Below, piece by piece: positions 14,510 to 62,186 of a DNA stretch of 64,000 nucleotides. The number at the start of each line of letters is the position of its first letter. Within the stretch, counting starts at the first letter, position 1. The notes beneath the pieces are model-generated. The model saw only the letters and a list, made by a program, of their open reading frames with translations. It made no database searches and was not told the DNA's origin. Origin of the DNA: Sphingomonas naphthae (lineage in GTDB: Bacteria; Pseudomonadota; Alphaproteobacteria; Sphingomonadales; Sphingomonadaceae); contig NZ_CP117411.1 in NCBI RefSeq assembly GCF_028607085.1, positions 1,612,001 through 1,676,000 on the forward strand, written 5' to 3'. The position numbers and the translations under genes were made by a program.

Positions 14510-14977
14510 ATGGACGGCGAAACGGGTGACGGCATTGGCCTGGGCGAGCTGGACGGGCTGATCGGCTATCATATCCGCCGGGCTTCTTCGGTGTTCGGCG
14601 GCACTTTCGTCCGCGCCGTGACCGGCACGGGGCTGCGCCAGGTGCCGTTCGGCATCCTTTCGGTCGTCGCCGCCAATCCCGGCATCAAGCAGGGTGCGGC
14701 CGGCCGCGCGCTCGGCATCCAGCGCGCCAACATGGTGGCACTCATCAACGAACTGGTCGATGCCGGCCTCGTCGACCGCCGCGCCGCCGACGACGATCGC
14801 CGCGCCTTCGCCCTTTCTGTAACCCCCCGCGGCGCGGCGCTGCTGGAGGATTGCACCCGGCGCATCAAGGAGCAGGAGGCCGAACTGCTCGCCGATTTCG
14901 ACGAGACCGAGCGCATCCTGCTGATCGATCTCGTCCGCCGTATCGAAGCGCGCGAGGCGCCGACCTCCGCCGACTGA
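14510..14977 (+). CDS. MarR-family regulator, FerC-like
   Basis: 155-residue winged-helix repressor. The DNA-binding part spans about 50-115: G-A-A-G-R-A-L-G-I-Q-R-A-N-M recognition helix, then the wing D-D-D-R-R-A-F-A-L. In Sphingobium SYK-6 the MarR protein FerC represses ferBA and responds to feruloyl-CoA. Here the gene lies 142 bases upstream of an aldehyde dehydrogenase-ferB-ferA operon, so the same role is likely (inference). The palindrome at 15084-15102 is its candidate site. GGAGGG precedes the ATG at 14510. Confidence 0.8.
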   Translation: MDGETGDGIGLGELDGLIGYHIRRASSVFGGTFVRAVTGTGLRQVPFGILSVVAANPGIKQGAAGRALGIQRANMVALINELVDAGLVDRRAADDDRRAFALSVTPRGAALLEDCTRRIKEQEAELLADFDETERILLIDLVRRIEAREAPTSAD

Positions 14978-15083
14978 ACAGGCCGATTCGCGGCCTACAC
15001 CGCGATAGATTTTCGCATTTTTCCGCCATTCTCGCGCACCGCTCGTCGGCGCAGCGGAAGCCTCTTGCCGCGCGTCCTCGATA

Positions 15084-15102
15084 TGGTTATGCCTAATAAC
15101 AA
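15084..15102. promoter_or_regulatory. candidate FerC operator palindrome
   Basis: TGGTTAT (15084-15090), a 5-base spacer, then ATAACAA (15096-15102): 7-bp arms with one mismatch, perfect over GTTAT/ATAAC. It sits just before the AAGGAG ribosome site of the aldehyde dehydrogenase gene, in the only AT-rich patch of that gap. The position suits a MarR repressor of the downstream operon. Confidence 0.45.
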
Positions 15103-15119
15103 TAACGAAGGAGAGATCA

Positions 15120-16559: not shown

Positions 16560-16607
16560 TCGGTCCCGCCCGATCCCCCCGACATCCACCGTTCCGAGGA
16601 CATTGCC

Positions 16608-17444
16608 ATGACCGATCGTGCCGAAGCCGATACCGTTGCTTTTGAAATCATCGACCGCGTCGCCTGGGTAAGCTTCAACCGCCCCGAAAAGCGCAATTGC
16701 ATGAGCCCCAAGCTCAACCGCCGCATGATGGAGGTGCTCGACGAACTGGAGCACAGCCCGGACGTCGGCGTGCTGGTGCTGACCGGCGAGGGCACCGCCT
16801 GGACCGCCGGCATGGACCTGAAGGAATATTTCCGCGACACCGAGGCACAGGGCCTGGGCGGCAGCCGCAAGGCGCAGCGCGAAAGCTATGGCTGGTGGCG
16901 GCGCCTGCGCTGGTATCAGAAGCCGACGATCGCGATGGTCAACGGCTGGTGCTTCGGCGGCGGCTATGGCCCGTTGTTCGCCTGCGACCTGGCCTTCGCC
17001 GCCGAGGACGCGCAATTCGGCCTGTCCGAGATCAACTGGGGCATCCTGCCGGGCGGCGGCGCCGCCAAGGTCGCGACCGAGCTGACCTCGTTCCGCCGCG
17101 CCATGTATCATTCGCTGATGGGCGAGAATATCGACGGCAAGACGGCGGTCGAATGGGGCTTCGTCAACGAGGCGCTGCCGCTCGACCAGCTCAAGGCGCG
17201 CGTGTCGGAGGTGGCGAACGTGCTGCTCAAGAAGAACCCTGTCGCGCTCAAGGCCACCAAGGACGCCATCCGCCGCGTGCGCGAGATGACCTACGACAAT
17301 GCCGAGGATTATCTGCTGCGCGCGCAGGAAGCGGCCAACAGCTACGACAATGAGGGCCGCAAGGAAGGCATCAAGCAGTTCATCGACGACAAGACCTACA
17401 AGCCCGGTCTTGGCGCCTATGATCTCAGCAAGCAGAACGCCTGA
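16608..17444 (+). CDS. ferB: feruloyl/p-coumaroyl-CoA hydratase-lyase
   Basis: Hydrates hydroxycinnamoyl-CoA and splits it into the benzaldehyde and acetyl-CoA. 278 residues, crotonase fold. It matches the HCHL/Ech subfamily strongly: N-R-P-E-K-R-N, A-W-T-A-G-M-D-L-K-E-Y-F, M-V-N-G-W-C-F-G-G-G and G-L-S-E-I-N-W-G with the catalytic Glu at 141 (E143 in the Pseudomonas enzyme). The C-terminal Q-F-I-D-D-K-x-Y-K-P-G-L tail is also HCHL-specific. It lies between the aldehyde dehydrogenase and the CoA ligase on one transcript. Confidence 0.93.
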   Translation: MTDRAEADTVAFEIIDRVAWVSFNRPEKRNCMSPKLNRRMMEVLDELEHSPDVGVLVLTGEGTAWTAGMDLKEYFRDTEAQGLGGSRKAQRESYGWWRRLRWYQKPTIAMVNGWCFGGGYGPLFACDLAFAAEDAQFGLSEINWGILPGGGAAKVATELTSFRRAMYHSLMGENIDGKTAVEWGFVNEALPLDQLKARVSEVANVLLKKNPVALKATKDAIRRVREMTYDNAEDYLLRAQEAANSYDNEGRKEGIKQFIDDKTYKPGLGAYDLSKQNA

Positions 17445-17458
17445 GGCCCGGCCCCGCC

Positions 17459-19594: not shown

Positions 19595-19601
19595 AGCCCC
19601 T

Positions 19602-19630
19602 CGTCACCCCGGCACGGGGCCGGGGTGACG
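19602..19630. terminator. stem-loop between convergent ferA and pobA
   Basis: Perfect 11-bp arms CGTCACCCCGG (19602-19612) and CCGGGGTGACG (19620-19630) with a 7-base loop, 7 bases after ferA and 11 before the pobA stop. No T run. It may act as a bidirectional terminator or belong to a REP-like repeat family. Confidence 0.5.
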
Positions 19631-19641
19631 CCAGTCCACCC

Positions 19642-20851
<1,210 letters not shown>

Positions 20852-45179: not shown

Positions 45180-46409
45180 TCAGTTGGCCGCCAATTCCTT
45201 GAGAACCACGCTCGTGTCGGCGAGCCGCTCGGCCGGCAATGCTACGGCGCCGACGACCAGCGCCTTGCCCTGGACGTAATCCTTGGTGGCGTTGACGCAG
45301 TCGAGCGCGATGACCTTGCCGTCCTTCAGATAGACGATCGAGAAGCTGCGGGTCGCCGGATCCCCGCGTAGCACCGCCTCGTCATGGCCGGTCGACAGGC
45401 CCACCGTCTGGAGGCGCAGATCATATTGGTTGGACCAGAACCACGGCACGGCGTGATAGGCCACCTCCTGCCCGAGAATGGTCTTGGCCGCGACGGTCGC
45501 CTGATCGTTGGCGTTCTGGACCGATTCCAGGCGGATCGGCATGTCGCCGGCGAAGGGATTGGCGTGGAGCGCGCAGTCGCCGATGGCGTAGATGTGCGGC
45601 AGGCTGGTGCGGCATTGCGCATCGACCGCGACGCCATTGCCGCCCTCGGCGCCCGCCGCCAGCAGCGGCTCGACGGCGGGGATGATGCCGATGCCGACGA
45701 TCACCATCTCGCAGGCCGGGATCTCGCCATCGGCCAGCCGCACGCCGATGACCCGGCCCTCGGCCTCCTCGATACATTCGACCTTCGCGCCCAGCCGCAC
45801 ATCGACGCCATGGGCGCGATGCTCGGCCTCGTAGAAGCGCGACAGCGGCTCGCCGGCGACGCGGGCCAGCACCCGGTCGAGCGCCTCCAATACCGTCACC
45901 TTCTTGCCGAACTTGGCCAGCACGGCGGCCGCCTCCAGCCCGATATAGCCGCCGCCGATCACGACGACGCGGGTGGTGCCGGCCAGTTCTCCGGTCATCC
46001 GATCGACATCGGCGCGGGTGCGCACGCCGTGGACGCCGATCAGGTCGTGGCCCGAGCAGGTCAGCTTGCGGGGTGAGCCGCCGGTGGCCCAGATCAGGTC
46101 GCCATAGCCGATCGTCTCGCCGTCCGCCGTCGTGATGCTCCGCGCCTCGGGATCCACCGACACGACCTTGCGGCCGAGCAGCATCGCCACCTGCCGCTCC
46201 TCCCAGAAGGCGGGCGGTCGGATCAGGATGCGCTCGAACGCCTTCTCGCCCGAGAAATAATCCTTCGACAGCGGGGGCCGCTCATAGGGCAGCTCCGGCT
46301 CGTCGCCGACGATCGCGATCGTCCCCGCGAACTTGGCCTGCCGCAGCGCCACCGCCGCTTGCGCCCCGCCATGCCCGCCACCCACGATCACCACGTCGTA
46401 TTGCGTCAT
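45180..46409 (-). CDS. NADH-dependent ferredoxin reductase of a Rieske oxygenase system
   Basis: 409-residue FAD/NAD(P)-binding reductase. FAD motif [10 protein letters not shown] at the N-terminus, [10 protein letters not shown] typical of putidaredoxin/rubredoxin reductases, second Rossmann motif [10 protein letters not shown] and C-terminal Y-A-I-G-D-C-A. Similar in type to RedA2 of the dioxin dioxygenase system. Last gene of the eight-gene operon, 4 bases after the ferredoxin. It should pass electrons from NADH to the ferredoxin serving one or both Rieske oxygenases (54814 and 58736). Confidence 0.9.
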
Positions 46410-46413
46410 ATCC

Positions 46414-46734
46414 TCAATCCTCGGGGGCGATGCGGACCACCAGAGCGTTCAATGCCGCATCAAGCAAGATCTGGCATGACAGTCGTGAATTGGGCTGACG
46501 ATGCTCCGAACTGTCGAGCAGATCATCCTCGTCGCCACCGGCAGCTGAGTCTAGCCCGGCCGGGGCTTGTTCGATGAAGACATGGCAGGTCGCGCAGGAA
46601 CAGGAGCCGCCGCACAGCGCGACCAGTTCGTAGATTCCGGCGGCGCGGATCGCCTCCATCAGGGAGACACCGGGATCGGCGGACACGGCGACGGAGACAT
46701 TTTCCCGCGTGATGACGGTCAGATCGATCGCCAT
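46414..46734 (-). CDS. [2Fe-2S] ferredoxin, adrenodoxin/putidaredoxin type
   Basis: 106 residues. Cluster ligands C41-x5-C47-x2-C50 in [11 protein letters not shown] and C87 in S-C-Q-I-L, the vertebrate-type pattern used by Fdx3 of dioxin dioxygenase and by the dicamba demethylase ferredoxin. An extra Cys at 45 lies within the motif. Its ATG overlaps the stop of the extradiol dioxygenase gene by one base, and the reductase follows. Confidence 0.93.
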
Positions 46735-47720
46735 CAATGATGCCCGGCCGCCGGCTCGATGCCGGTCATGTAGCGGAAGTTCCAGTCGGGTTCGCGCATC
46801 AGGAAGGGCGGCAGATTGTGGACGAAATGGGCGTAAGCGAAGAGCGGGTTGAGCCATTCGCGCGGCACCCAATTGTCGTCCACCGCATCGGCATCGGCGC
46901 CGAACTCGGCCTCGCCGCCGGCGGGGCACGGGAAATAATAGAAGAGGGCTGAATCGACCCGGTGGCGCCCCAGGCCCTGATCGGAGGGCGCCCATCCTTT
47001 TCGCACCATGGCGTTCACCGCGATCATGATCTCGTCGACATCCTCCAGCGCGAAATTGGCGTGGTGGAAGCGCAGCTTGCCATCGACGCCGGGGAAGGGC
47101 GCGTCAGCGTTGAGGAACAGGATATTGTGGTGGTTGGTGGTGCCGTCGGCGCGGAGGTAATTGCCGAAGCCGGTCTGGCGATCGGTAAGGCGGAAGTTCA
47201 GCACGTCGACCATGAAGCGATAGACCTCGTCATAGTTCGGCACTGCGAACACGACATGGGTGATGAGGCGCGGGGTCGCCTGGAGGCGCCAGCGACGCGG
47301 GCGATTGAGGCGGCCGACGAGGCCCGGCGCATTGGCCGCATCGGGCGCGGCCGTGAGCGGACGGGGCACCCACAGGCGCAGCGCCATAGGCACGCCGAAC
47401 GGAGTGCCGAAGCGCACCAGATCGCCTTCGCGGGACAACGGCACGACGGCCTCCAGCCGATCGCACAGCGCGGCAAGCGCCTCGGGGCGATCGACCCCCC
47501 AGACGACCTCCTGCACCCCCTGCCCGACCACGCCGGTCGTCTGCGGCAAGGCCGGTGAGCCGAGCGGATGGATCTCCACCTCCGCGCCGTTGACGAGGCC
47601 GAAGCGCGAGGAGGCCACGTCGGCATGCAATTCCTTCAGCCCGAAATCGCGGAAGAAGCGGGTCGATTCCGCCAGATCCTCGACCCCATATACCAGCCGC
47701 TCGATGCCGATGATGGCCAT
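46734..47720 (-). CDS. two-domain VOC extradiol (catechol 2,3-dioxygenase-like) ring-cleavage enzyme
   Basis: 328 residues, two VOC modules: an N-terminal domain without metal ligands (about 4-115) and a catalytic C-terminal one (about 148-310). Metal-ligand candidates are His in L-I-T-H-V-V-F, His in R-F-H-H-A-N-F and Glu in G-E-A-E-F-G, the His-His-Glu order of type I extradiol dioxygenases. Distant from well-known BphC or XylE by eye, so the ring substrate is open. GGAG precedes the ATG. It belongs to the eight-gene operon. Confidence 0.8.
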   Translation of the reverse strand: MAIIGIERLVYGVEDLAESTRFFRDFGLKELHADVASSRFGLVNGAEVEIHPLGSPALPQTTGVVGQGVQEVVWGVDRPEALAALCDRLEAVVPLSREGDLVRFGTPFGVPMALRLWVPRPLTAAPDAANAPGLVGRLNRPRRWRLQATPRLITHVVFAVPNYDEVYRFMVDVLNFRLTDRQTGFGNYLRADGTTNHHNILFLNADAPFPGVDGKLRFHHANFALEDVDEIMIAVNAMVRKGWAPSDQGLGRHRVDSALFYYFPCPAGGEAEFGADADAVDDNWVPREWLNPLFAYAHFVHNLPPFLMREPDWNFRYMTGIEPAAGHH

Positions 47721-47750: not shown

Positions 47751-48542
47751 TCAGGCAGTGGCGACGTCGCCCGGCCCGCCGTAAGCGAGCCAGCCACCGT
47801 CCACCGGCAGGTTGGCGCCGCTGATATAGGCGCTGAGATCGGACAGGAGGTAGGCGGCGGCATGGGCCACGTCCTCCACCCGGCCGATCCGCCCCATCGG
47901 CGTGCGCCGCTCCAGTCGCGCGATGTCAATCTTGCCCTCCGCCGCCAGCCGCTCGATCATGGGCGTGGCGATGTAGGTGGGCGCGATGGCGTTGACCCGC
48001 ACACCGCGCGCGGCCCACTCGCAGGTAAGCGTGCGCGCGAGATGGGCTATCGCGGCCTTGGCCGGGCCGTAGGCATGACGGCGCGGGATACCGCCGACGC
48101 CGTTGACCGACGACACCAGCACGATTGAGCCCGCCCCCTGCGCCACCATCGCCCGCCCCGCCGCCCGCGCGACGAGGAAGCTGCCGCGCAGATGCACGTC
48201 CACCGTCCGTTGCCAGGCGTCGATCGGAACATCGAGTGCGAGCTGGACCGGATCGGCGATGCCCGCCGAGTTGAACACGCCATCGATCCCGCCAAGCGCG
48301 GCCACCATGCGATCGACGCTAGCGTCGCATTGCGCCTCATCGACCACGTCGAGCCCGGCGCGGCGCTCTTCGGTCAGATCGGGCCATGCGGCGGCGAGCG
48401 CGTCGGCATCGCGATCGGTGACGAAGACCGAAGCGCCGAAATCCACGAAGGCCCGCGCCGCGCCGAGGCCGATGCCGCTTGCGGCCCCGGTGACCAGAAT
48501 GCGCTTGCCGGCGAGCAGGGGCAGGGTGGCGAGGCCGCTCAC
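47751..48542 (-). CDS. short-chain dehydrogenase, candidate cis-dihydrodiol dehydrogenase
   Basis: 263 residues, classical SDR: T-G-A-A-S-G-I-G cofactor loop (about 18-25), D-R-D for NAD preference at the second strand, N-S-A-G, catalytic Ser in L-V-S-S-V-N and Y-x3-K in A-Y-G-P-A-K. The C-terminal P-V-D-G-G-W is usual. GTG start overlapping the SMP-30 stop by 4 bases (GTGA) fixes the start. With a ring-hydroxylating dioxygenase in the locus, a diol dehydrogenase role is the simplest inference. Confidence 0.85.
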   Translation of the reverse strand: MSGLATLPLLAGKRILVTGAASGIGLGAARAFVDFGASVFVTDRDADALAAAWPDLTEERRAGLDVVDEAQCDASVDRMVAALGGIDGVFNSAGIADPVQLALDVPIDAWQRTVDVHLRGSFLVARAAGRAMVAQGAGSIVLVSSVNGVGGIPRRHAYGPAKAAIAHLARTLTCEWAARGVRVNAIAPTYIATPMIERLAAEGKIDIARLERRTPMGRIGRVEDVAHAAAYLLSDLSAYISGANLPVDGGWLAYGGPGDVATA

Positions 48543-49576
48543 CAATGCACCATGGGCAGGCCAGCGACGGGGCTGGCGAAGGCCGGGATGCGGGTTGCGC
48601 GGAGGCCGCCAAGATAGGCGGTGCACAGGTCCGGTCCGCCGAAGGTGACGCTGGCGAGCCAGGGACAGATTGTGCCGCCGGAGAGCATCAGCGTGTCGAA
48701 CGGCACCGGCGCGCCGGTGGCGAATGCCGCCTCCAGAGCCGTCGTGCCCGCCGGATCGCCGTCGTCGAGCAGGGTCAGCACGTCGCCCTCAGGCGTGAGC
48801 GCGATCAGGCGATCGGCGAAGATCATCGTCGCCCAGAGGTTGCCATAGGCATCGAAGGTGATGCCATCGATCATGCCGGTGCCGAGCGAGGCCGGGCCGT
48901 AGATTTCGCGATCGATGAGCGCGCCGTCCGCTGCGACCCGGAAGCGGGTCACCCGGCGTGCGGTCGTCTCGGCGACGTAGAGCCATTCCTCCGCTGCGTC
49001 GAAACGGATCTCGTTGGCGAAGTGCAGCCCGTCCGCCACGATACGCGGGCCGCGTTCGTCGAGCAAGATGATGCAGCCGTCCGCCAGCCCCTGCCGGATC
49101 GCGTCGCTCCACGGGTTCACCATCGTCGAAACGGTGATCCAGATGCGGTCACGGCGATCGCGCAGGACGAAATTCACCTTGCCCATCGGCCGGCCTTCGA
49201 TCCGGTCGAGGATCACCCGCGTCTCGCCGCTGCGGGTCATCCGCTCCAGCCGATCGGTGCCGAAATTGGAAATGAGGATGTCGCCGTTCGCGGCGAAGGC
49301 GAGACCGTTGGGGAGCGTGCCGGTCAGCAGGCTGTCCGCCGCCGAGGCCGACAGGTCGAAATGCGGGTCCGGCGCCTGAGTGACGAGCGTCTGCGTGTCG
49401 TCCGGGTCAATCCGCACCACCCCGCCGCGCGCGTCGGCGCTCCACAGCGTCCCGTCACGCTCGGCGAGGATGCATTCGGGGCGTTGCAGATCGATGCCGA
49501 CCATGCGGATCGCGGCGGGATCGACCTGGAAGCCGGCCAGCGGGTTCGGCCCCCGCCCTTCGCGCAGGAGGGTCAT
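48539..49576 (-). CDS. SMP-30/gluconolactonase-family lactonase
   Basis: 345 residues, six-bladed propeller. Metal-site candidates are Glu in P-E-C-I-L, Asn in L-P-N-G-L, Asn in F-A-N-E-I and Asp in M-I-D-G-I-T, the standard SMP-30 set. Such enzymes open sugar and other lactones with a divalent metal. Overlaps both neighbours by 4 bases (ATGA and GTGA), so it is tightly coupled in the operon. It probably hydrolyses a lactone intermediate. Confidence 0.85.
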   Translation of the reverse strand: MTLLREGRGPNPLAGFQVDPAAIRMVGIDLQRPECILAERDGTLWSADARGGVVRIDPDDTQTLVTQAPDPHFDLSASAADSLLTGTLPNGLAFAANGDILISNFGTDRLERMTRSGETRVILDRIEGRPMGKVNFVLRDRRDRIWITVSTMVNPWSDAIRQGLADGCIILLDERGPRIVADGLHFANEIRFDAAEEWLYVAETTARRVTRFRVAADGALIDREIYGPASLGTGMIDGITFDAYGNLWATMIFADRLIALTPEGDVLTLLDDGDPAGTTALEAAFATGAPVPFDTLMLSGGTICPWLASVTFGGPDLCTAYLGGLRATRIPAFASPVAGLPMVHW

Positions 49577-50724
49577 GCCGCCATTCGGGCGAAGCGATCG
49601 GCCAGCCAGTCGCCGATGAAATTCTGGACCGGCTCCATATTGTCGGCGCCGCAATGCTCGATACCACCCTCGGCGGGGGTGAAGACCTTCAGCTCGCGAT
49701 CGGGGCTGTTGACCGCCTGCTCATAGCTCTGCTCGGCATATTTGAGCGGGATCTGGCGATCGTTGCCACCATGCGTCACAAGGAAGGGTACGCGGATGTT
49801 CTGGAGGTGGCCGTTGAGGTTCACCTTGTCCATCAGCGCCATGAAGCTCGCCATGTCGGGCTGGCCCCAGACCCACATCACATGGTCCCAATAATGGGGC
49901 ACCGGCATGTCGCCCTCGCGCTGGAGCCGGGCCTTCTGGTGCCCGCCCCAATCGTGGTTGCCGCCCCAGACCGCGCCGATCGCGAAGCGGGGTTCGTAGG
50001 CGAGCGCGCGCGGGGCGTAATAGCCGCCCATCGACCAGCCCATCATGCCGATCCGCTTGCAGTCGACGTCGGCGCGGGTTTCGAGATAATCGACGGCCGC
50101 GCCCGCCCAGCGTTCGGTATCGTGGATCGCGGTGAGGCCATCGAGGCGCAGCGCCTCGCCGACGCCGGGCTGGTCGATCAGCAGGGTCGAAATGCCGCGT
50201 TTGGCGAAGCGGTCGCGCAGCGCCAGCAGTACCATCTCCTTGGTGCTGTCGAGCCCGTTGCAGAAGATCATGCAGGGGCGCGGGCCGTCTCCACGGCCGG
50301 GCACGAAGGTGGCCGCGAGGTGCGCGCCCTCATAGGGAAAGGTCACGCGGGCAGCGCCGAGATCGCTCGTCCGGTAGAAGGCTTCGACCGTGTCGAGCAT
50401 CGTCCGGTACATCGCCTTGCGCGGGCCGAAGTCACGGCTCTGCATCCGTTCGGCGGTGATATAATAAGCGGCGGCGCGGGCATATTTTTCGGCGGCGCTG
50501 ATCGGATGGCCGGCAGCCTCATCGGCCTCGGCCAGCCCGCGCACCCGATCGGCGAGCGCGCCCCAGGCGTCGAAGAAGGCTTCGGTGCCCTCATCGGGGT
50601 TGGCGCTGGCGACGGCGCGGACCTTGTCGTTGGCGGGATCGATCTCGCCCATCACCCCGCCCATGTTGAGGCAGATGTTGACCGAGAGATTCCAGACGTA
50701 ATTGCCGGGGAAGGGTTCGTACAT
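49573..50724 (-). CDS. alpha/beta hydrolase, dihydroxypseudooxynicotine hydrolase-like (C-C or ester hydrolase)
   Basis: 383 residues with an all-helical N-terminal domain of about 140 residues before the hydrolase core, an architecture of 2,6-dihydroxypseudooxynicotine hydrolase and FrsA-like proteins. Nucleophile Ser in G-W-S-M-G-G, acid in G-G-N-D-R-Q-I-P, and base His in G-I-E-H-C-G-A-D. In that family the enzyme cleaves a C-C bond of a diketone-like substrate. In this locus it could act on the ring-fission product (inference). GAGGAG precedes the ATG at 50724. Confidence 0.8.
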   Translation of the reverse strand: MYEPFPGNYVWNLSVNICLNMGGVMGEIDPANDKVRAVASANPDEGTEAFFDAWGALADRVRGLAEADEAAGHPISAAEKYARAAAYYITAERMQSRDFGPRKAMYRTMLDTVEAFYRTSDLGAARVTFPYEGAHLAATFVPGRGDGPRPCMIFCNGLDSTKEMVLLALRDRFAKRGISTLLIDQPGVGEALRLDGLTAIHDTERWAGAAVDYLETRADVDCKRIGMMGWSMGGYYAPRALAYEPRFAIGAVWGGNHDWGGHQKARLQREGDMPVPHYWDHVMWVWGQPDMASFMALMDKVNLNGHLQNIRVPFLVTHGGNDRQIPLKYAEQSYEQAVNSPDRELKVFTPAEGGIEHCGADNMEPVQNFIGDWLADRFARMAA

Positions 50725-50747: not shown

Positions 50748-51674
50748 TCAGAATTCGACGCGGTCGCCGCCCTTGAGGCCGAGCATGCCGCGCGCTTCGT
50801 CCGGGGTGGCGGGCTCGTGGCCCATCTCCTTCAGGATGCGGACGATCTTGGCGACCTGCTCGGCGTTGGAGGCAGCGAGCTTGCCGCGCTCGATGAACAG
50901 GCTGTCCTCGAGCCCGACCCGGACATGGCCGCCGAGCAGCGCCGCCTGCGTCAAGAACGGCATCTGGTGCCGCCCGGCCGCCAGCACCGACCACTGATAT
51001 GCGCCGCGCCCGAACAGCCGGTCGGCCGTCTCCTTCATCACGAAGAGATTTTCGAGATCGGCGCCGATGCCGCCCAGGATACCGAAGATCATCTGGACAA
51101 AGAAGGGCGGCTTCACGAGGCCGCGATCGACGAAATGGGCGAGGTTGTAGAGGTGGCCCAGATCGTAGCATTCATGCTCGAACTTAGTGCCGCTCTGCGA
51201 CATCACGGTCAGGATCGTATTGATGTCGCGGAAAGTGTTGCGGAAGATGTAATCGTCAGAATTGACGACATAATCCTTCTCCCAATCATGCTTCCACGTC
51301 CCGATCCGCTTGGCGGCGGGGAAGAAGGCGAAGTTGAGCGAACCCATGTTGAGCGAGCATAGCTCCGGCGCGAACTGCTTCGCGGCGGCAAGCCGCTCGG
51401 TGACGGTCATCGTCGCGCTGCCGCCGGTGGTGATGTTGACGACGGCGTCGGTGCGCTGACGGATCACCGGCAGGAACCGGCCGTAGATGTCGGGATCGCC
51501 GGTCGGGCGCCCGTCCTCGGGCATACGGGCGTGGAGGTGGAGGATGGCGGCGCCCGCTTCGGCGGCGTCGATCGACTGTTCAGTAATCTCCTCCGGCGTG
51601 ATAGGCAGCGCATCCGACATGGTGGGCGTGTGCGCCGATCCGGTGACGGCGCAGCTGATGATGACCTTGGCCAT
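50748..51674 (-). CDS. beta-keto acid cleavage enzyme (BKACE, DUF849)
   Basis: 308-residue TIM barrel of the 3-keto-5-aminohexanoate cleavage family. These enzymes condense a beta-keto acid with acetyl-CoA and release acetoacetate plus a new CoA ester. Zinc-site marks: H-L-H-A-R near the N-terminus, N-I-T-T-G-G, the central C-S-L-N-M-G-S-L-N-F and the C-terminal G-G-H-V-R-V-G-L-E-D. All look intact. It starts one base after the dehydrogenase stop, so the two probably act in sequence. Which keto acid is used cannot be read from sequence. Confidence 0.9.
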   Translation of the reverse strand: MAKVIISCAVTGSAHTPTMSDALPITPEEITEQSIDAAEAGAAILHLHARMPEDGRPTGDPDIYGRFLPVIRQRTDAVVNITTGGSATMTVTERLAAAKQFAPELCSLNMGSLNFAFFPAAKRIGTWKHDWEKDYVVNSDDYIFRNTFRDINTILTVMSQSGTKFEHECYDLGHLYNLAHFVDRGLVKPPFFVQMIFGILGGIGADLENLFVMKETADRLFGRGAYQWSVLAAGRHQMPFLTQAALLGGHVRVGLEDSLFIERGKLAASNAEQVAKIVRILKEMGHEPATPDEARGMLGLKGGDRVEF

Positions 51675-51675
51675 G

Positions 51676-52488
51676 TCAGGCGGCTCCACCGATGCGGGGG
51701 AGGATATCGGGCAACATCTGCTGGGTGAGCGCCGCCGCCGGGATCGCCACCCCGACATCGTGGCCGAGCGTGATGGCGGCCTTCAGATCCTTGTAGAAGA
51801 TCGGCGTGGCGCGGGGATGGAGATCGAGTTCGGGCCACATATCCCCGGCGCGGCTCTGCGCGAAGCCGGCGCTGAACACCGCCAGCAAAGCCTCCCGCGA
51901 AACGCCCGCCGCCTCGCCCAGCCGCAGACCTTCCGAGACGGCGATCATGTTGACGCAGCAGACGAGCTGGTGGGCGATCTTGGCGGCGGTAGCGGTGCCG
52001 ACGGCGCCAGTCAGCGTGATCGACTGGCCGGAGGTGCGGAACACGGGCAGGCAGGCCGCGACCGCCGCCTCGTCGCCGCCGACCATATAGGCCATCGTCT
52101 TTTCCTCGGCGCCCTTAGCGCTGCCGCTGACCGGCGCATCGACCAGCACGGCGCCGTGGCGGCCGGCGAGGTCGGCGGCGGCGGCGATCGTGTCGGGCAG
52201 GACGGTGCTGTGGATGACGACGATCTTGCCGCTGCAGTCGCAGGGGAACACGCCTCCCTCCCCGCCCAGCACGTCGAGCACCTGTGCGTCGTTCACCACG
52301 CAGAGGATGACGAGGTCGCTGGCGGCGGCCACTTCGGCAGGCGTCGCAGCGGCGGTGGCGCCGGCCCCGGCCAGCTCGGTCATCGGCTCGGGGCGGACAT
52401 CGTACACGGTCAGCGGATAGCCGGCCTCGACGATGTTGCGCGCCAGCGGCTTTCCCTGGAACCCAAGCCCGATGAACCCCACTCTCAT
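51676..52488 (-). CDS. beta-hydroxyacid dehydrogenase (3-hydroxyisobutyrate dehydrogenase family)
   Basis: 270 residues. Rossmann motif G-F-I-G-L-G-F-Q-G at the N-terminus, substrate loop D-A-P-V-S-G-S-A-K-G-A-E and catalytic Lys in T-A-A-K-I-A-H-Q-L-V. First gene of the eight-gene leftward operon, with GGAG 8 bases upstream. Such enzymes oxidise 3-hydroxy acids to 3-keto acids or semialdehydes; next to a BKACE this suggests it produces the beta-keto acid that BKACE then cleaves (inference). Confidence 0.88.
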   Translation of the reverse strand: MRVGFIGLGFQGKPLARNIVEAGYPLTVYDVRPEPMTELAGAGATAAATPAEVAAASDLVILCVVNDAQVLDVLGGEGGVFPCDCSGKIVVIHSTVLPDTIAAAADLAGRHGAVLVDAPVSGSAKGAEEKTMAYMVGGDEAAVAACLPVFRTSGQSITLTGAVGTATAAKIAHQLVCCVNMIAVSEGLRLGEAAGVSREALLAVFSAGFAQSRAGDMWPELDLHPRATPIFYKDLKAAITLGHDVGVAIPAAALTQQMLPDILPRIGGAA

Positions 52489-52719: not shown

Positions 52720-54108
52720 ATGAGAGAGGGTGACTTGCAGACACAGCCCGCGACGGACGTCGGCACACGGACCAGCCTGTGGGTGCTGCTCCTGATGACG
52801 CTCACCTACACATCGAGCTTCATGGATCGCACGATCCTCTCGATCATACAGAATCCGATCAAGGAGGAACTGGGCCTCAGCGACACACAACTCGGCCTGC
52901 TCGGCGGGTTTGCGTTCGCCATCTTCTATTCGACCCTCGGCATTCCCATCGCGCGGTTGGCGGAGCAGGTCGACCGGCGCTGGCTCATCAGCGTGTCGCT
53001 CACGATCTGGTCGGCAGCGACGGCGATGAGCGGGCTGGCACGCGGCTTCGCGAGCCTCTTCCTGCTGCGGGTCGCGGTCGGCGTGGGCGAAGCCGGGGCC
53101 AGCCCGCCGGCCCATTCGCTCATCACCGATTTCTTCCCGCCCCACCGGCGCGGCACAGCCTTTTCCATCTATTCGCTGGGCGTGTCGGCGGGCGTGCTGA
53201 TCGGCGCGACCGGGGGTGGCTATGTCGCGCAGACCTATGGCTGGCGGATGACCTTCGCGGTGTTCGGCATTCCCGGGCTGCTGCTCGCCATCCTGATCCC
53301 GCTCACCATCCGCGAGCCCGCGCGCGGCAGGCTCGATCCTGGCCAACCGGTCGAGGCGGCGCCGCCCAGCTTCGCGGCGGTGCTGCGGCAGTTCCGGGCG
53401 AAACGCGCGCTGTTCCACTGTGTCGCGGGGGCCAGCATCGCCGCCTTCGGCTCCTATTCGATCCTGACCTTCGCGGCGCCCTTCTTCATCCGCGTCTACG
53501 GCGCCACTTTGTCCGAAGCGGGGCTGTTCCTGGGGCTGACGAGCGGCGTGTCGGCGGGCATCGGCATCTTCCTGTCAGGCATCGTTACCGACCGGCTGGG
53601 CTCGCGCGACCGGCGCTGGGCGGTATGGGTGCCCGCGATCGGCCTGCTGCTGGCGACGCCGGGCTACATCATGGGCTTCCTTGCGCCCACCCAAGCCCTC
53701 GCGATGACAATCCTGCTCGTACCGCCGGCACTGCAATATCTCTACATGGGGCCTACCTTCGGGCTGATGCATAATATGGTGACGCCCCGGATGCGGGCGA
53801 CGGCGACAGCGCTGCTCTATCTCGCGGTCAACCTGTTCGGCATGGGCCTGGGGCCGACCCTGACGGGATTCCTCAGCGACCGGCTGGCGGCGGCCCACTT
53901 CACGGGCGGCGACTATGCCGTGCAATGCGCGGGCGGCAAGGCGACGCAAGCGGCGCTCGACACGCTCTGCCGCGCCGCCTCGGCGGAGGGGGTGCGCTGG
54001 TCGCTGATCCTGGCGACGAGCGCCTTCCTTTGGGCCGCCATCCACTATCTGATCGCCGCCCGCACCTTGAGGGCGGATCTCGGCCAAACGGACCCCGCGC
54101 GCCAATGA
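52720..54108 (+). CDS. MFS transporter, spinster-like
   Basis: 462 residues, 12 membrane helices. MFS motif A is seen after helix 2 as I-P-I-A-R-L-A-E-Q-V-D-R-R and again in the second half as S-G-I-V-T-D-R-L-G-S-R-D. S-S-F-M-D-R-T-I-L at helix 1 is typical of the spinster-type carriers often found in sphingomonad aromatic loci. It diverges from the eight-gene operon (231-base gap) and overlaps the GST gene by 4 bases. Probably imports the aromatic substrate or exports an intermediate. Confidence 0.88.
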   Translation: MREGDLQTQPATDVGTRTSLWVLLLMTLTYTSSFMDRTILSIIQNPIKEELGLSDTQLGLLGGFAFAIFYSTLGIPIARLAEQVDRRWLISVSLTIWSAATAMSGLARGFASLFLLRVAVGVGEAGASPPAHSLITDFFPPHRRGTAFSIYSLGVSAGVLIGATGGGYVAQTYGWRMTFAVFGIPGLLLAILIPLTIREPARGRLDPGQPVEAAPPSFAAVLRQFRAKRALFHCVAGASIAAFGSYSILTFAAPFFIRVYGATLSEAGLFLGLTSGVSAGIGIFLSGIVTDRLGSRDRRWAVWVPAIGLLLATPGYIMGFLAPTQALAMTILLVPPALQYLYMGPTFGLMHNMVTPRMRATATALLYLAVNLFGMGLGPTLTGFLSDRLAAAHFTGGDYAVQCAGGKATQAALDTLCRAASAEGVRWSLILATSAFLWAAIHYLIAARTLRADLGQTDPARQ

Positions 54109-54812
54109 CGATCACCCTGTTCGCCTACCCGACGCGCTTCGACTTGCCGAGTTCGAGCCCGTTCGTGATGAAGACCGAAATCCAGCTCCGCATGATGGGG
54201 CTGGCGTATCGCAAGGCCTTCGACGGGATCGATCGCGCGCCGAGAGGCAAGCTGCCGTATATCGATGACGGCGGGACGATCGTGCCGGATTCCACCGCGA
54301 TCCGCCGCTATCTCGAAGGTGCCTACCATCGCGATCTCGACGCGGGTTTCGATGAAGCGCAGCGCGCGGTGGCCTGGACGGCCGAGCGGCTCGCCGAGGA
54401 CAATCTGTTCTGGCTGATGGTCCATGCCCGCTGGGCGATCGACGACAATTTCGAGGCCGGGCCGGCGCGCAATTTCGATGCCCTCCCGGACGCCGTGCGC
54501 GACACCGCGCGGCAACGGCAGCGAGCGAAGGTGATCGCCTATCTCGATGGCCAGGGCACGGGACGCCTGTCCGACGACGAGCGCCGCGTGATGGCGGATC
54601 GCGGCTATGACGCGCTGTCACGCCTAATCGGCGACAAGCCTTTTCTGCTGGGCGACACGCCCTGCGGAGCGGACGCGAGCCTGTTCGCGCAGATCGCGGC
54701 CGCGCTGATCCCACCCTTTCCAAGCCACACGCAAAACGCGGCGGCGCGGCACGACAATCTCGTCCGCTATGTGGATCGGATGATGGCGCTCTACTATCCC
54801 GACTTCGCCTAG
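54105..54812 (+). CDS. glutathione S-transferase-like protein (metaxin/FAX type)
   Basis: 235 residues. Thioredoxin-like N-terminal part with P-Y-I-D-D-G and P-D-S-T-A-I-R-R-Y-L (glutathione gamma-Glu site), helical C-terminal part from about 80 with G-D-K-P-F-L-L-G-D-T-P-C-G-A-D-A-S-L-F, typical of the GST_N_4/GST_C_6 group. ATGA overlap with the MFS gene shows coupling. Its stop is one base from the convergent Rieske gene. May conjugate or isomerise a pathway intermediate; the catalytic residue is not obvious. Confidence 0.82.
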   Translation: MTITLFAYPTRFDLPSSSPFVMKTEIQLRMMGLAYRKAFDGIDRAPRGKLPYIDDGGTIVPDSTAIRRYLEGAYHRDLDAGFDEAQRAVAWTAERLAEDNLFWLMVHARWAIDDNFEAGPARNFDALPDAVRDTARQRQRAKVIAYLDGQGTGRLSDDERRVMADRGYDALSRLIGDKPFLLGDTPCGADASLFAQIAAALIPPFPSHTQNAAARHDNLVRYVDRMMALYYPDFA

Positions 54813-54813
54813 A

Positions 54814-55869
54814 TCACGCCGGCTGGGGGGCCTCGACTTCGACCGGCTCGCTGTCCTGCTCGGCGGCGATCATCGCGGCGAGCTGGCGGCGGACGCGGAT
54901 GGCGGCGCTGTCGATGGGGAGTAGGAGCGGCTTCAAGCCGAGCAGGTCGTCCGTCCCCATCCGCGCCTGCTGCATCTCCAGCATCGGCTTGTCCTCCAGC
55001 GCGAAGGCCTTGAAGATGTTCGCGCCCAGTGCCGCGTGGAAGGTCGCATCGTCGACGCGGAAGTAGCGGACATTGTTGTAGAAATAGTGGGTGGTGAAGC
55101 GCGTCTCGGGCGTCATGCTGTGGACGGTGGCGGTGAGGTCGCCTTCCCGCCATGCCACCCCGGCCGCCGTGGTGGCGGTGCGCAGCACGAGGATCGCGGG
55201 CGCCGTCCAGGCGACCTCGATCCATTTGTCGGCGCGTGCCCCCCCCGGCAGCAGCGCCCGATAGGCGGCAGACGGCTCACGGTCGGCCGCGAACCACTCG
55301 ATCGCGACCCGCCCCGGCGCCTCCTGCACGGTCGTCCTCGCCCCCGTCATCATGCCGCCGAGCGTGTCCGGGTGGAGATAATCGGTGTGGCTGAGATCGA
55401 GGATATTGTCGGTGAGCAGCTGATAGTTGCAGGCCGTCGGCATATGACCGCGGATGCTCGTCTGCGGCGGGGCGCGATCGAGGAAGGCGAGATCGGGCAC
55501 GAGGGCGGGATCGGCCGCGTCGGCCTCCCCCAGCCACACCCATATCGCGCCGTGGCGCTCGACGACGGGATAGGCCGTCGTCCGCATCCGGCCGGTGACC
55601 GGCCCATGCGGATTATGGACGCAGCGCCCGTCGCTGCCGAAGACCAGGCCGTGGTAATTGCAGCGCACCACCCCGCCCGCCACCCGCCCGGCCGACAGCG
55701 GCGCGAACCGGTGTGGGCAGGTATCGCGCAGGATTGCGGGCGCGCCTCCGGCATCGCGAAAGAGCAGCAGCGGCGTGTCGAGCACGGTGCGCGCGAGCGA
55801 GGCGCTGTCGGACAGCTCCTCGCCCCATGCCACCTGATACCAGCAGTTCTTCAACCACGGCATCGGCAT
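54814..55869 (-). CDS. Rieske non-heme iron oxygenase, VanA/DdmC (O-demethylase) type
   Basis: 351 residues. Rieske ligands C51-x-H53 and C70-x2-H73 (C-P-H-R-F-A-P-L-S and C-N-Y-H-G). The mononuclear iron site shows N155, D158, H161 and H166 in D-N-I-L-D-L-S-H-x4-H, the same spacing as dicamba O-demethylase. The size, single-subunit type and H-N-P-H-G-P also match DdmC/VanA. Expected chemistry is removal of a methyl from an aryl ether or a related monooxygenation. The putidaredoxin-type ferredoxin and reductase (45180-46734) are the obvious redox partners. Last in its operon. Confidence 0.88.
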   Translation of the reverse strand: MPMPWLKNCWYQVAWGEELSDSASLARTVLDTPLLLFRDAGGAPAILRDTCPHRFAPLSAGRVAGGVVRCNYHGLVFGSDGRCVHNPHGPVTGRMRTTAYPVVERHGAIWVWLGEADAADPALVPDLAFLDRAPPQTSIRGHMPTACNYQLLTDNILDLSHTDYLHPDTLGGMMTGARTTVQEAPGRVAIEWFAADREPSAAYRALLPGGARADKWIEVAWTAPAILVLRTATTAAGVAWREGDLTATVHSMTPETRFTTHYFYNNVRYFRVDDATFHAALGANIFKAFALEDKPMLEMQQARMGTDDLLGLKPLLLPIDSAAIRVRRQLAAMIAAEQDSEPVEVEAPQPA

Positions 55870-58166: not shown

Positions 58167-58718
58167 TCAGAGGAAGAAGGACAGGTTCTTCACATGCAGC
58201 GTGGCCTGATCGATCAGGATCTTGCGCCAGAAAATCTTGAGGCCCGCGTCGGTGCGGCGGATCTTGTCGATCCGCTTGGCGACCAGCATCTCGCCCGCCT
58301 CCTCCATCCGCGAGCGGTGGCAGATCAGCTTGCTGCGGACGGTGATGACCTGCCCGTCCGGCGTCTCCTCCACCCCATCGACATAGATGTTGGCGACGAT
58401 GTGCGACACGCGCGACAGCGGCTCCTCCGCCCAGTGGATCTTGGTCATCACCTGATAGACGCGCGCCTGGAGCGTCGCCCGCGTATCGTCGATCCAGGCG
58501 GATTCATGCTCGTCGGTCGCGTCGTCGAACCGGTGCTTGAACTGGAGGTTCTTGCGGATCGGCACCCAATAGCGGATGTCCTCGGCGAAATAATCGAGCC
58601 ATTCCTCGAAATGGCGGGAGTCGATCATGTCGGCCTCGCGATAGAGGAATTCCTCGATCTCGCGCGTCAGCAGCAATTCGTCGACCGCGCTCATGCGGCC
58701 GGTGGTTTCGGTCAGCAT
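58167..58718 (-). CDS. ring-hydroxylating dioxygenase, beta subunit
   Basis: 183 residues of the small-subunit SnoaL-like fold: E-I-E-E-F-L-Y-R-E-A-D-M-I-D, the W-L-D-Y-F-A-E-D-I-R-Y-W-V-P block and C-terminal W-R-K-I-L-I-D-Q with terminal L-S-F-F-L. Structural partner of the alpha subunit, 17 bases downstream of it. Start 58718 has GGAGGGG; ATG 58694 is also possible. Confidence 0.92.
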   Translation of the reverse strand: MLTETTGRMSAVDELLLTREIEEFLYREADMIDSRHFEEWLDYFAEDIRYWVPIRKNLQFKHRFDDATDEHESAWIDDTRATLQARVYQVMTKIHWAEEPLSRVSHIVANIYVDGVEETPDGQVITVRSKLICHRSRMEEAGEMLVAKRIDKIRRTDAGLKIFWRKILIDQATLHVKNLSFFL

Positions 58719-58735: not shown

Positions 58736-60004
58736 TCACAGGCCCATCGCGTCGGACCAGGCGCGATAGAAGGCCATGTTGTTGCGCTCGGTCATCCACC
58801 ATTTGCTGACGTCGCCGGGAATGTAGGGATCGCGGTAGCTGCCCGAATCCGCGACGTAGCTGAACGGGGCGTGCTGCGCGCCGCGCACCGTCGAGCCCTC
58901 GGACGCATAGTTCCAATTCTCCATGTCATCCTGCTCGGTCATGCCGCCGGGGCCGCTGTAGGAGATGTAATAGCGGCGCAGGAAATCCTTGGCCTCCTGC
59001 GGCGCGTCCTTGTCGACGAAGAACATGCGCCACGCCTGACAGGATTGCGGCCCGTTGGGGTGCGCCATCAGGAACACGCGCGGCTGTTGCGTATGGAAGC
59101 CCGCGTTGGGGAAGATGTTGGCCAGCACCATTGGCGATCCCGCCCGCTCGCCGAGCCGGTCCACCCGGCGGCGCCAGCAATCCTCGAAATATTCGGAGGT
59201 GATCTTCGACATCTGATAATGATCGCGCGGCCTGTCGGTCGGCACCTTCTCGAAGATCAGGCCGTGGCCGTTGTCGGTCGCGGTCAGGAACAGCTCGCCG
59301 AACGGATCGCGCCGACCGATCCCCTCGCGCGGACCGATCTTGCTCATGTCGGTCGACTGGTGGCTGATGTTGTGGAGCGGATCGCCGCCCGAATTTTCCG
59401 AGACGAACTTCCAGTTGCACGGGATATTCCATTTCTGGACCCCGCCATAGACCTCGACCTCGCCGTCGCCGCCGTCCCACGGACCCAGCCCGATCCACAG
59501 CCCCTCCTTCGCGTCGCCGAGGTATGTCTCGAAATCGGGCGCGTCGGGATTCCACGTCGCCCAGATCGTGCCCCGGAAGCTCGCCACCTTGGCGACCTTG
59601 ATGAGCCCCCAATCCTTGCGATTGAAGCTGGCGGGGAAATTCTCCTTCTCCGGCACGCCCTTCAGATCGCCGTTCAGATCGTAGGACCAGGCGTGATAGG
59701 GGCAGTAGAACAGCTTTGTGTTGCCCTCGTCGTAGCGGCAGATGCGCATGCCCTTGTGGCGGCAGGTGTTGAGGAAGACGTTGGGCTTGCCGTCCTTGCT
59801 ACGCGACAGGATCACCTGATCCTCGCCCATCCGCGAAAGGAAGAAGTCGCCGACCCTGGGGATCTGGCTCTCGTGGCCGACCAGCAGCCATTTCTGGCGG
59901 AAGATCCGGTCCAGCTCCATTTCGTAGATTTCGCGATCATGGAAAATCTTGCGGCTGACGACGTCCCTCGTCGTATCGACGAGGCGGTTGGGGATCATGT
60001 CCAT
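58736..60004 (-). CDS. ring-hydroxylating dioxygenase, alpha (catalytic) subunit
   Basis: 422 residues. Rieske ligands C81-x-H83-x17-C101-x2-H104. The catalytic iron site lies in E-N-S-G-G-D208-P-L-H211-N-I-S-H215, with a three-residue gap between the His ligands where most alpha subunits have four or five. The third ligand Asp is probably in T-E-Q-D-D-M-E-N-W. Forms a hexamer with the beta subunit and should make a cis-dihydrodiol, or hydroxylate with loss of a substituent. First gene of the leftward oxygenase operon and divergent from LysR. ATG 59998 is an alternative start. Confidence 0.92.
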   Translation of the reverse strand: MDMIPNRLVDTTRDVVSRKIFHDREIYEMELDRIFRQKWLLVGHESQIPRVGDFFLSRMGEDQVILSRSKDGKPNVFLNTCRHKGMRICRYDEGNTKLFYCPYHAWSYDLNGDLKGVPEKENFPASFNRKDWGLIKVAKVASFRGTIWATWNPDAPDFETYLGDAKEGLWIGLGPWDGGDGEVEVYGGVQKWNIPCNWKFVSENSGGDPLHNISHQSTDMSKIGPREGIGRRDPFGELFLTATDNGHGLIFEKVPTDRPRDHYQMSKITSEYFEDCWRRRVDRLGERAGSPMVLANIFPNAGFHTQQPRVFLMAHPNGPQSCQAWRMFFVDKDAPQEAKDFLRRYYISYSGPGGMTEQDDMENWNYASEGSTVRGAQHAPFSYVADSGSYRDPYIPGDVSKWWMTERNNMAFYRAWSDAMGL

Positions 60005-60311: not shown

Positions 60312-61241
60312 ATGCATCTGCAAGGGCTGGATCTTAATCTGCTTGTGGCCCTGGACGCGCTCCTGTCCGAAAAGAATGTCACGCGCGCGGCCGAGCGGAT
60401 CAACATCTCGCAGCCCGGCATGAGCGCAGCACTACAGAAGCTGCGGTATTTCTTCGACGATCCGCTGCTTGAGCGGGTCGGGCGGAACATGGAGCTTACA
60501 AATCGCGGACGAATGCTCGCCGAACCGACAAAGCTGATCCTCTCCCAGATCCGCGATCTCAATGAAGAGGCGCGGCGCTTCGAACCTTCCGAAGCCAGTC
60601 GTATATTCCGTATCGCCGCGACGACATTCTGCGCCGAAATTCTCGCCACGCCACTGATCCGCAAGCTTCAGGAATTGGCCCCCAGGATCAGCGTCCAGTT
60701 TGAAGACCTGTCGAATGACACGGTGCGTCGAATCTCCGATGGGCAGATCGACTTCGCCATCACCATTTCAGCGCGCATCATCGAGAGTTTCGACAATCTG
60801 AGCGAATCTCTGGCGTCGGAGAAGCTCTTCACTGACCGCTTCGTCGTCGCCATCTCACGCGACCATCGGTTCAGCGGCGATGCGATCAGTTTCGACGAGT
60901 TCTGCGACATGCCCTATATCGAGACGCGATTTGCCGGCGTGATCGCGGGTGTCAGCGAACAATTACTGCGCCAGCAGCCACGCCAGCCCCATGTGTGTGC
61001 TTGGCTCCCCAATTTTCAGCTGACACTCGATGCGATCGGCCAAACGAACATGGTGACTTTACTGCCATCGCTCCTCGTTGAGTTGAAAGGCGACCGATAC
61101 AATGTCCGCACGCTTCCAGTGCCATTCGCCATGCCGGACCTGGAAGAGCGCCTTTTTTGGCACACCCGCAACAACAGTGATCCGGGGCATAGCTGGATGT
61201 CCAGCCTGTTACGAAATGTCATTACCGAGCTTATGATTTGA
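60312..61241 (+). CDS. LysR-family regulator, NodD/NahR-like
   Basis: 309 residues. Winged-helix domain 1-65 (L-D-L-N-L-L-V-A-L-D-A-L-L, N-V-T-R-A-A-E-R-I-N-I-S-Q-P-G-M-S-A-A-L) of the NodD/NahR/LinR subgroup, then the two-lobe effector domain (about 90-305). AAGGGG precedes the ATG. Divergent from the ring-hydroxylating dioxygenase operon, so it likely activates it with the substrate or an early intermediate as inducer. Its 3' end is 79 bases from the IS3 element. Confidence 0.9.
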   Translation: MHLQGLDLNLLVALDALLSEKNVTRAAERINISQPGMSAALQKLRYFFDDPLLERVGRNMELTNRGRMLAEPTKLILSQIRDLNEEARRFEPSEASRIFRIAATTFCAEILATPLIRKLQELAPRISVQFEDLSNDTVRRISDGQIDFAITISARIIESFDNLSESLASEKLFTDRFVVAISRDHRFSGDAISFDEFCDMPYIETRFAGVIAGVSEQLLRQQPRQPHVCAWLPNFQLTLDAIGQTNMVTLLPSLLVELKGDRYNVRTLPVPFAMPDLEERLFWHTRNNSDPGHSWMSSLLRNVITELMI

Positions 61242-61337: not shown

Positions 61338-62186
61338 TCATGCCGCTGATAAGTTAGCTTCGGTGTCCTCATGCCCCTGGCGGGGGCGGTTGGTAAACTC
61401 GGCGGGCGCCATGCCGCCGAGGCTGCTGTGCGGACGCACGGTGTTATAGTCTGTCCGCCATGCCTCGATGATCCGTCTCGCCGCAGCCAGCGAGGAGAAC
61501 AGGTGCTCGTTCAGGCACTCGTCGCGCAAGCGACCATTGAAGCTCTCGACAAAGCCGTTCTGCTGCGGCTTGCCCGGCGCGATGTAATGCCACTCCACGC
61601 CCGTGTCCTGGCACCAGGCGAGGACGGCGTGACTGGTCAGTTCGGTCCCGTTGTCGCTGACCACCATGCATGGCAGCCCACGACGCTCGGCGATGGCCGT
61701 CAGCTCCCGCACGACACGCCGCCCTGACAGCGAGGTATCGACGATGCAGGCCAGGCACTCCCGGCTGTAGTCGTCGATGACATTGAGCAGGCGGAACCGC
61801 CGGCCGCAGGCCAATGCATCCGACACGAAGTCGAGCGACCAGCGCTGGTTGGGTTCCTGCGGAATCGCCATCGGCGCCCGCGTGCCCAACGCTCGTTTTC
61901 GGCCGCCGCGCTTTCGCACCGTCAGCCGCTCCTCGCGATACAGCCGGTACATCTTCTTCAGGTTCATGCCCTTGCCTTCACGCCGGAGCAGGACCGCCAG
62001 CCGGCGATAACCGAACCGACGACGCTCGTTGGCGATCTCGCGCATCCGTTCGCGCACAGCGTCGTCCTTCCCGCGAAGCGGCTCATATTGCCATGCCGAC
62101 CGGTTGACCCCGATCAGTCTGCAAGCGCGACGCTCGGAGAAGCCGTGGTCGGCCATCAGCTTCTCCACCGCAGCGTAGCGATCCAC
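61338..62186 (-). CDS. IS3-family transposase OrfB (integrase catalytic domain)
   Basis: 282 residues. DDE catalytic residues: D in L-D-F-V-S-D, D in V-V-S-D-N-G-T-E and E in [12 protein letters not shown], 35 residues apart as in retroviral-type integrases. The N-terminal HTH_21 part is present. The listed start is GTG 62186, but the normal product is a fusion with OrfA by -1 frameshift at 62204-62198. The reading frame is intact, so the element may be active. Confidence 0.93.

Follow-up and report, generated by a model that had tools for sequence, protein, structure and literature searches.

The window, the whole 64,000-nucleotide stretch of Sphingomonas naphthae DNA that was analysed, carries at the head of an operon a HIBADH-family (beta-hydroxyacid) dehydrogenase gene followed directly by the gene for a beta-keto acid cleavage enzyme (BKACE), and the VOC enzyme, FrsA-like hydrolase and BKACE of this operon recur as a core in relatives. 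The operon is best explained as the lower part of an aromatic degradation pathway that would end with the dehydrogenase and then BKACE, an explanation that, taken whole, we judge to be about an even call. The BKACE exit as such is highly likely and well supported by context, while the supply of BKACE by the dehydrogenase product is plausible and might equally well prove wrong. We infer the substrate, the order of the steps, the direction of the dehydrogenase and the use of its product by BKACE.

Both genes lie on the minus strand, with an intergenic gap of one base. The dehydrogenase gene (51676..52488; ATG at 52488, 270 aa) has its stop at 51676 and the BKACE gene (50748..51674; ATG at 51674, stop ending at 50748, 308 aa) starts at 51674; the two are the first genes of a minus-strand run, as the first-pass annotation had read them. 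The run continues with an alpha/beta hydrolase, a supposed C-C (retro-Claisen) hydrolase (49573..50724), an SMP-30/gluconolactonase-type protein, a supposed lactonase (48539..49576), a short-chain dehydrogenase (SDR; 47751..48545), a VOC-family extradiol dioxygenase (46734..47720), a [2Fe-2S] ferredoxin (46414..46734) and a dioxygenase-type ferredoxin-NAD(+) reductase (45180..46409), and ends at 45180. Successive gaps are 1, 23, -4, -7, 30, -1 and 4 bases, the start of the SDR being uncertain. Upstream, and divergent, lies an MFS transporter gene (52720..54108, plus strand); in Sphingobium sp. 15-1 the corresponding position is taken by a homologue at 79%. The MFS gene is followed by a gene for a GST-family protein (54105..54812, plus strand) whose nearest NCBIfam model is the isoprene-epoxide GST IsoI, at 128.8 bits and thus below the cut-off of 300. 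Farther upstream are a VanA-type Rieske oxygenase with a VanA_C domain (54814..55869, minus strand), a TonB receptor named by eye, and a two-subunit ring-hydroxylating dioxygenase. The beta subunit of the latter (RHDb; 58167..58718, minus strand) has a 74% homologue beside the alpha subunit gene in Sphingobium sp. 15-1, and its alpha subunit (RHDa; 58736..60004, minus strand) is HcaE-like. A LysR-type regulator, also named by eye (60312..61241, plus strand), has homologues of 74%, 65% and 64% that adjoin related dioxygenase loci. Next to the LysR gene, an IS3-type transposase-like ORF (61338-62186, by eye) marks the outer border of the catabolic region. Elsewhere in the window, a row of MarR-, aldehyde dehydrogenase-, enoyl-CoA hydratase- and ADP-forming acyl-CoA synthetase-like genes (14510-20817, by eye), closed by a 4-hydroxybenzoate hydroxylase-like gene (19642-20817), resembles a cluster for hydroxycinnamates (ferulate/p-coumarate).

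The BKACE family is large, and a physiological role is known for few of its members. The window BKACE matched the Pfam BKACE model (PF05853) at 367.3 bits (gathering score 24.8) and, at 517 bits, passed the cut-off of 430 for the NCBIfam equivalog NF053538 (3,5-dioxohexanoate:acetyl-CoA acetone transferase); it fell below the cut-offs of the lysine-fermentation (239.3 of 382) and 3-oxoadipate (175 of 350) equivalog types. Among solved structures it is closest to 3e02, 3e49 and 8rio/8rip, the last being the Paracoccus enzyme, and the catalytic Tyr is kept: Tyr170 aligns with Tyr173 of 8rio, to which the accessible part of PMC12871164 assigns the catalytic role. The same part describes a DUF849 member of divergent chemistry, so that the window homologue might acylate rather than cleave, the activity reported for BsfD in flavophos synthesis. 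However, BsfD has Phe at the position of the catalytic Tyr, and the window BKACE scores 363 bits to the Paracoccus cleaving enzyme versus 151 bits to BsfD chain 9zsc; we regard acylation as highly improbable. In a tree of 90 distinct sequences (98 before identical rows were removed), built by a quick method that left 34 of 87 inner branches open, the window BKACE pairs with that of locus L110 of Sphingobium sp. 15-1 (support 93) within a sphingomonad-rich group of cyclase-linked and VOC-linked BKACEs. A few members with phloroglucinol-type neighbours fall into a wider group of 35 (support 98); six from Alteromonadaceae, whose neighbours are of that type too, branch separately. The BKACEs of L037, L046, L092 and L093 sit on a far branch, and the core therefore includes two BKACE lineages.

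The dehydrogenase matched NAD_binding_2 (PF03446, 136.9 bits) and NAD_binding_11 (PF14833, 62.9 bits) and has the catalytic Lys (K170), which places it in the beta-hydroxyacid dehydrogenase superfamily; with the PF05853 match, this bears out the two families named at first pass. It passed no curated equivalog cut-off. The best NCBIfam scores were to tartronate semialdehyde reductases (TIGR01505, 171.5 bits, cut-off 340.75), and the HIBADH equivalog TIGR01692 was missed at 139.9 of 291.6 bits. The protein shares its fold family and catalytic Lys with tartronate semialdehyde reductase and 3-hydroxyisobutyrate dehydrogenase, but has K170-x-x-H173-Q174 where these have K-x-x-N-(N/Q). The tartronate semialdehyde reductase scores would suit an enzyme that removes an aldehyde or semialdehyde from ring cleavage and does not feed BKACE. 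We consider such a reductase improbable: the best score is just half the cut-off, the active-site stretch has His in place of Asn, and beta2 ends in Asp30, which marks a preference for NAD and so agrees with oxidation. A tartronate-semialdehyde-type dehydrogenase would, moreover, by itself be compatible with a BKACE feed, because a BKACE is reported, in the available sections of PMC11961710, to convert malonic semialdehyde and acetyl-CoA to formyl-CoA and acetoacetate.

Relatives of the dehydrogenase (E up to 1e-30) occur in 140 of 397 genomes of the family. Besides the window genome, only G394 and G359 have a relative that is 48 to 49% identical, those next in rank reaching 36 to 43%. In both, the relative directly precedes homologues of the dioxygenase genes (RHDa 78%, RHDb 64%), and the BKACE clusters lie elsewhere, about 0.97 Mb or more away in G394 (L084, L092) and on other contigs in G359 (L088, L093). 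Sphingobium sp. 15-1 has both forms, one (48%) directly before RHDa and the other at BKACE, ~14 kb away. Phylogenetic analysis separated these forms into clade B (window and L110; support 99/97) and clade R (three rows; 97/97), which are sisters, the five sequences being held together at 98/96. Clade B adjoins BKACE in both loci where it is found, and clade R adjoins the Rieske dioxygenase in all three. All five sequences have K-x-x-H-Q at the active-site Lys, and all 21 other alignment rows (18 distinct genes) have Asn instead of His; Asp at the end of beta2 occurs in all five and in six of the other rows. 6-Phosphogluconate dehydrogenase likewise has His at the position of this His. The dehydrogenase belongs to a small, sharply marked clade.

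Clade R immediately precedes the dioxygenase alpha gene in all three of its genomes (G394, G359 and Sphingobium sp. 15-1), which speaks for an alternative reading: the window dehydrogenase would serve a dioxygenase-linked upper pathway, for example by oxidising a hydroxymethyl group attached beside a carboxyl, and would merely be co-transcribed with BKACE, whose 3-oxo acid would come straight from hydrolase and lactonase, as in HIBADH-free clusters. Ten core clusters indeed have no HIBADH in the stretches fetched, and the dehydrogenase at at least 48% and RHDa at at least 78% co-occur in the same three of 397 family genomes, with RHDa also present in Sphingobium sp. 15-1 (88%). Yet Sphingobium sp. 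15-1 holds both an R and a B copy with only B at BKACE, which argues for a division of labour between them, and the window genome shows no R copy, its second match (E up to 1e-30) being only 31% identical. We rate this alternative as unlikely, if a serious one. The simpler notion of the dehydrogenase as just a partner of the dioxygenase was set aside, since Sphingobium sp. 15-1 holds both subtypes and the tree separates them.

The pair of dehydrogenase and BKACE is rare. A scan of named genomes found it at one other locus, L110, among the best 80 of 451 BKACE loci (in 68 of these the flanks each measure 1.5 kb or more), and HIBADH was found in 0 of 22 neighbourhoods taken for a VOC or BKACE hit; a general HIBADH-BKACE couple is thereby ruled out. 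At L110 the order MFS-HIBADH-BKACE-hydrolase-SMP30-SDR-VOC is that of the window, with identities of 72% for HIBADH, 87% for BKACE, 87% for the hydrolase, 81% for SMP30, 81% for the SDR and 77% for VOC. This identical gene order makes the pairing more than chance. Between the two loci, HIBADH has a pN/pS of 0.36 (dN 0.218, dS 0.92) and the five neighbour genes have values of 0.14 to 0.24. HIBADH is under purifying selection; it is therefore constrained, yet the loosest of the six genes compared. That looseness and the occurrence of the pair in two genomes only count against a feed of BKACE, as does the sister clade at the Rieske dioxygenase, which both pair-bearing genomes have too. The pair is real, and its reading as a BKACE feeder is plausible.

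Other dehydrogenases adjoin BKACE more often. Among the same best 80 of 451 loci, a 3-hydroxyacyl-CoA-dehydrogenase-type gene lies within 150 bases upstream of BKACE in nine and an SDR within 150 bases downstream in nine. A dehydrogenase beside BKACE is thus an arrangement that recurs, with enzymes of different families in the dehydrogenase position. On plasmid pSWIT02, a cyclase, an SDR and a 3-hydroxyacyl-CoA-dehydrogenase-type gene precede BKACE, a set that looks like the phloroglucinol set in the accessible text of PMC10470551. On plasmid 1 of Paracoccus denitrificans PD1222 (L106:6941-8930), a BKACE gene overlaps a ketopantoate-reductase-family gene by 8 bases, a candidate for another dehydrogenase-BKACE couple; an identity of this BKACE with BKACE15 was ruled out, as it scores 364 bits to 8rio and 8rio is merely its third-best chain. 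A literature search with most subscription journals outside its scope found neither the HIBADH-BKACE pair nor Sphingobium sp. 15-1 by name, and for the combination of DUF849, SMP-30 and extradiol enzymes it gave unrelated matches only; where beta-keto acid cleavage and ring cleavage occur together, the matches include the phloroglucinol paper PMC10470551. Such couples are known elsewhere; what looks new here is a HIBADH-family dehydrogenase in the couple and its extradiol ring-cleavage setting.

Two further observations concern related loci. Directly after the shared operon, L110:15643-20296 holds an HsaD/BphD-like hydrolase, an FAD monooxygenase, a BphC-like dioxygenase and a Rieske oxygenase; this second ring-cleavage set hints that the substrate may have two rings. 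In Sphingobium sp. YBL2, plasmid 4pYBL2-4 (L109:155-3881) carries an SDR-dioxygenase alpha-beta set and then a short VOC gene. This gene shares 52% identity with that of the window across 228 residues, and an insertion element lies 0.7 kb downstream of it.

The dehydrogenase aside, the operon has a wider distribution. BKACE relatives (E up to 1e-40) were found in 45 of 246 genomes of the order, and VOC relatives (E up to 1e-50) in 23 of 397 genomes of the family. We inspected 22 neighbourhoods, 20 chosen by VOC hit and two by BKACE hit; 12 contained BKACE, and SMP30 at at least 68% was present in 10 of these 12. Cluster labels were assigned by BLAST against few reference proteins, and ORFs in several loci were named by eye. 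The recurring core is VOC, FrsA-like hydrolase and BKACE, found in ten distinct clusters without HIBADH (L037, L082, L083, L084, L086, L087, L088, L089, L090 and L133) and in two with it; L090 and L111 have sequence in common and were counted as one, and L133 comes from a Roseiarcaceae genome. The stretches of the ten include SMP30 in eight, an FAD monooxygenase in nine and a cyclase-family hydrolase in seven. HIBADH is absent from the stretches fetched around all ten and is thus not part of the core. A compact cyclase-BKACE-SMP30 triad was seen at L153, L155, L160, L168 and L186, with SMP30 at 60-64% to the window's; neither VOC nor the FrsA-like hydrolase was found within these five loci. 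SMP30 and BKACE may be the smallest working unit.

As to the hydrolase of the core, its nearest solved structures are 2,6-dihydroxypseudooxynicotine hydrolase and the Yellowish-green 1-like protein. The former cleaves a C-C bond, according to the available sections of PMC11069340.

In the proposed pathway, an oxygenase would start the degradation of an aromatic compound and the operon would encode the lower part. The VOC enzyme would open the ring, the FrsA/DHPON-hydrolase-like enzyme would break a C-C bond of the ring-cleavage product, and SMP-30 would open a lactone to leave a 3-hydroxy acid. The HIBADH-type enzyme would then use NAD+ to oxidise this acid to a 3-oxo acid (C5 may bear a second oxygen), which BKACE would cleave with acetyl-CoA into acetoacetate and a CoA ester two carbons shorter. 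The last two steps are modelled on the anaerobic phloroglucinol pathway PGR-DPGC-TfD-TAL of Clostridium scatologenes, in which an exit by hydroxy-acid dehydrogenase and BKACE is proven: in the accessible text of PMC10470551, TfD oxidises (S)-3-hydroxy-5-oxohexanoate to 3,5-dioxohexanoate, and TAL, a BKACE, cleaves this 3,5-dioxo acid. The likeness, as far as that text goes, extends to clustered genes and to a 3-hydroxy-acid dehydrogenase that makes the 3-oxo acid BKACE turns into acetoacetate and a CoA ester. TfD, however, is annotated in the 3-hydroxyacyl-CoA dehydrogenase family and the adjacent gene of the window in the HIBADH family, and the phloroglucinol ring is opened by reduction and a cyclase-family cyclohydrolase, whereas the window has an extradiol dioxygenase. 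With the sphingomonad cyclase of L082 as sole cyclase query, the window genome gave no match at 1e-5. BKACE15 of Paracoccus denitrificans (PDB 8RIO, 8RIP, 9HNF), close to the window BKACE in sequence at 363 bits, is reported to accept 3,5-dioxohexanoate and 5-hydroxy-beta-ketohexanoate, and the accessible part of PMC11961710 describes its genetic context as suggesting aromatic-compound degradation and its physiological role as unknown. For the products, two matches to the pcaI/scoA family (acetoacetate activation) exceed the cut-off in the window genome, and upstream in Sphingobium sp. 15-1 acyl-CoA dehydrogenase, enoyl-CoA hydratase, ADP-forming acyl-CoA synthetase and thiolase look-alikes (by eye) fit the uptake of a CoA ester.

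Regarding the first steps, the isoflavone ifc and naringenin fde clusters, in the available portions of PMC11069340 and PMC11303751, share with the window a VOC (glyoxalase-type) ring-cleaving enzyme and a 2,6-dihydroxypseudooxynicotine-hydrolase-like alpha/beta hydrolase. They begin, however, with an FAD monooxygenase, and the window genome is without an ortholog of the FAD monooxygenase of related clusters: the best match to that of L082, used as query rather than IfcA or FdeE, is 28% identical. Those portions of the two papers name no BKACE, SMP-30 or HIBADH. According to PMC11069340, the isoflavone pathway yields 2-hydroxy-5-(4-hydroxyphenyl)-4H-pyran-4-one by a step whose gene was not identified, and a hydrolase-gene mutant still degraded daidzein. 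A pyranone could be a substrate that SMP-30 and BKACE take further; the VOC likeness to IfcB/FdeC is by family only. The L082-type FAD monooxygenase is present in nine of the ten core clusters without HIBADH and in neither of the two with it, L110 carrying an FAD monooxygenase of another type; as the loci are related, this split between FAD monooxygenase and HIBADH is only suggestive. Because the HIBADH operons are without an L082-type FAD monooxygenase and cyclase, and have an SDR and a nearby dioxygenase, their layout suggests a less oxidised aromatic whose cleavage would leave a 3-hydroxy rather than a 3-oxo acid.

The first-pass annotation had the lower pathway end by turning a 3-hydroxy acid into a CoA ester and acetoacetate. 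This reading is supported in part. NF053538, the 12 ring-cleavage clusters, the phloroglucinol precedent and clade B at BKACE in both loci speak for it; the ten HIBADH-free core clusters and the sister clade at the Rieske dioxygenase speak against it. The difference from classic meta pathways drawn there is not an exclusive one, because a 4-hydroxy-2-oxovalerate aldolase is encoded in the genome as well (576.5 bits, well over the cut-off), some 650 kb from the operon and beside hydratase and acylating acetaldehyde dehydrogenase look-alikes (by eye). Sphingobium sp. 15-1 has aldolase and acetaldehyde dehydrogenase genes (by eye) in the same region as its dioxygenase.

Taken together, the VOC-C-C hydrolase-SMP-30-BKACE core might be a new aerobic lower pathway for oxygen-ring or acyl-substituted aromatics, a tentative proposal that we hold to be rather doubtful. 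A pyranone or lactone from ring cleavage would lose its side chain to the hydrolase, SMP-30 would open the lactone to give a 3-oxo-5-hydroxy or 3,5-dioxo acid, and BKACE would cleave it. The window type would be a branch that handles more reduced substrates: a dioxygenase and an SDR would stand in for the FAD monooxygenase, and the new K-x-x-H-Q dehydrogenase would make the 3-oxo acid. Such an undescribed pathway could supply the steps after A-ring cleavage of flavonoid-like compounds. The conserved core links one BKACE branch to extradiol ring cleavage and gives that branch a testable role; the ways in which meta-cleavage pathways are known to end would gain an exit as acetoacetate and a CoA ester. 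The substrate of the K-x-x-H-Q dehydrogenase clade would identify the pathway.
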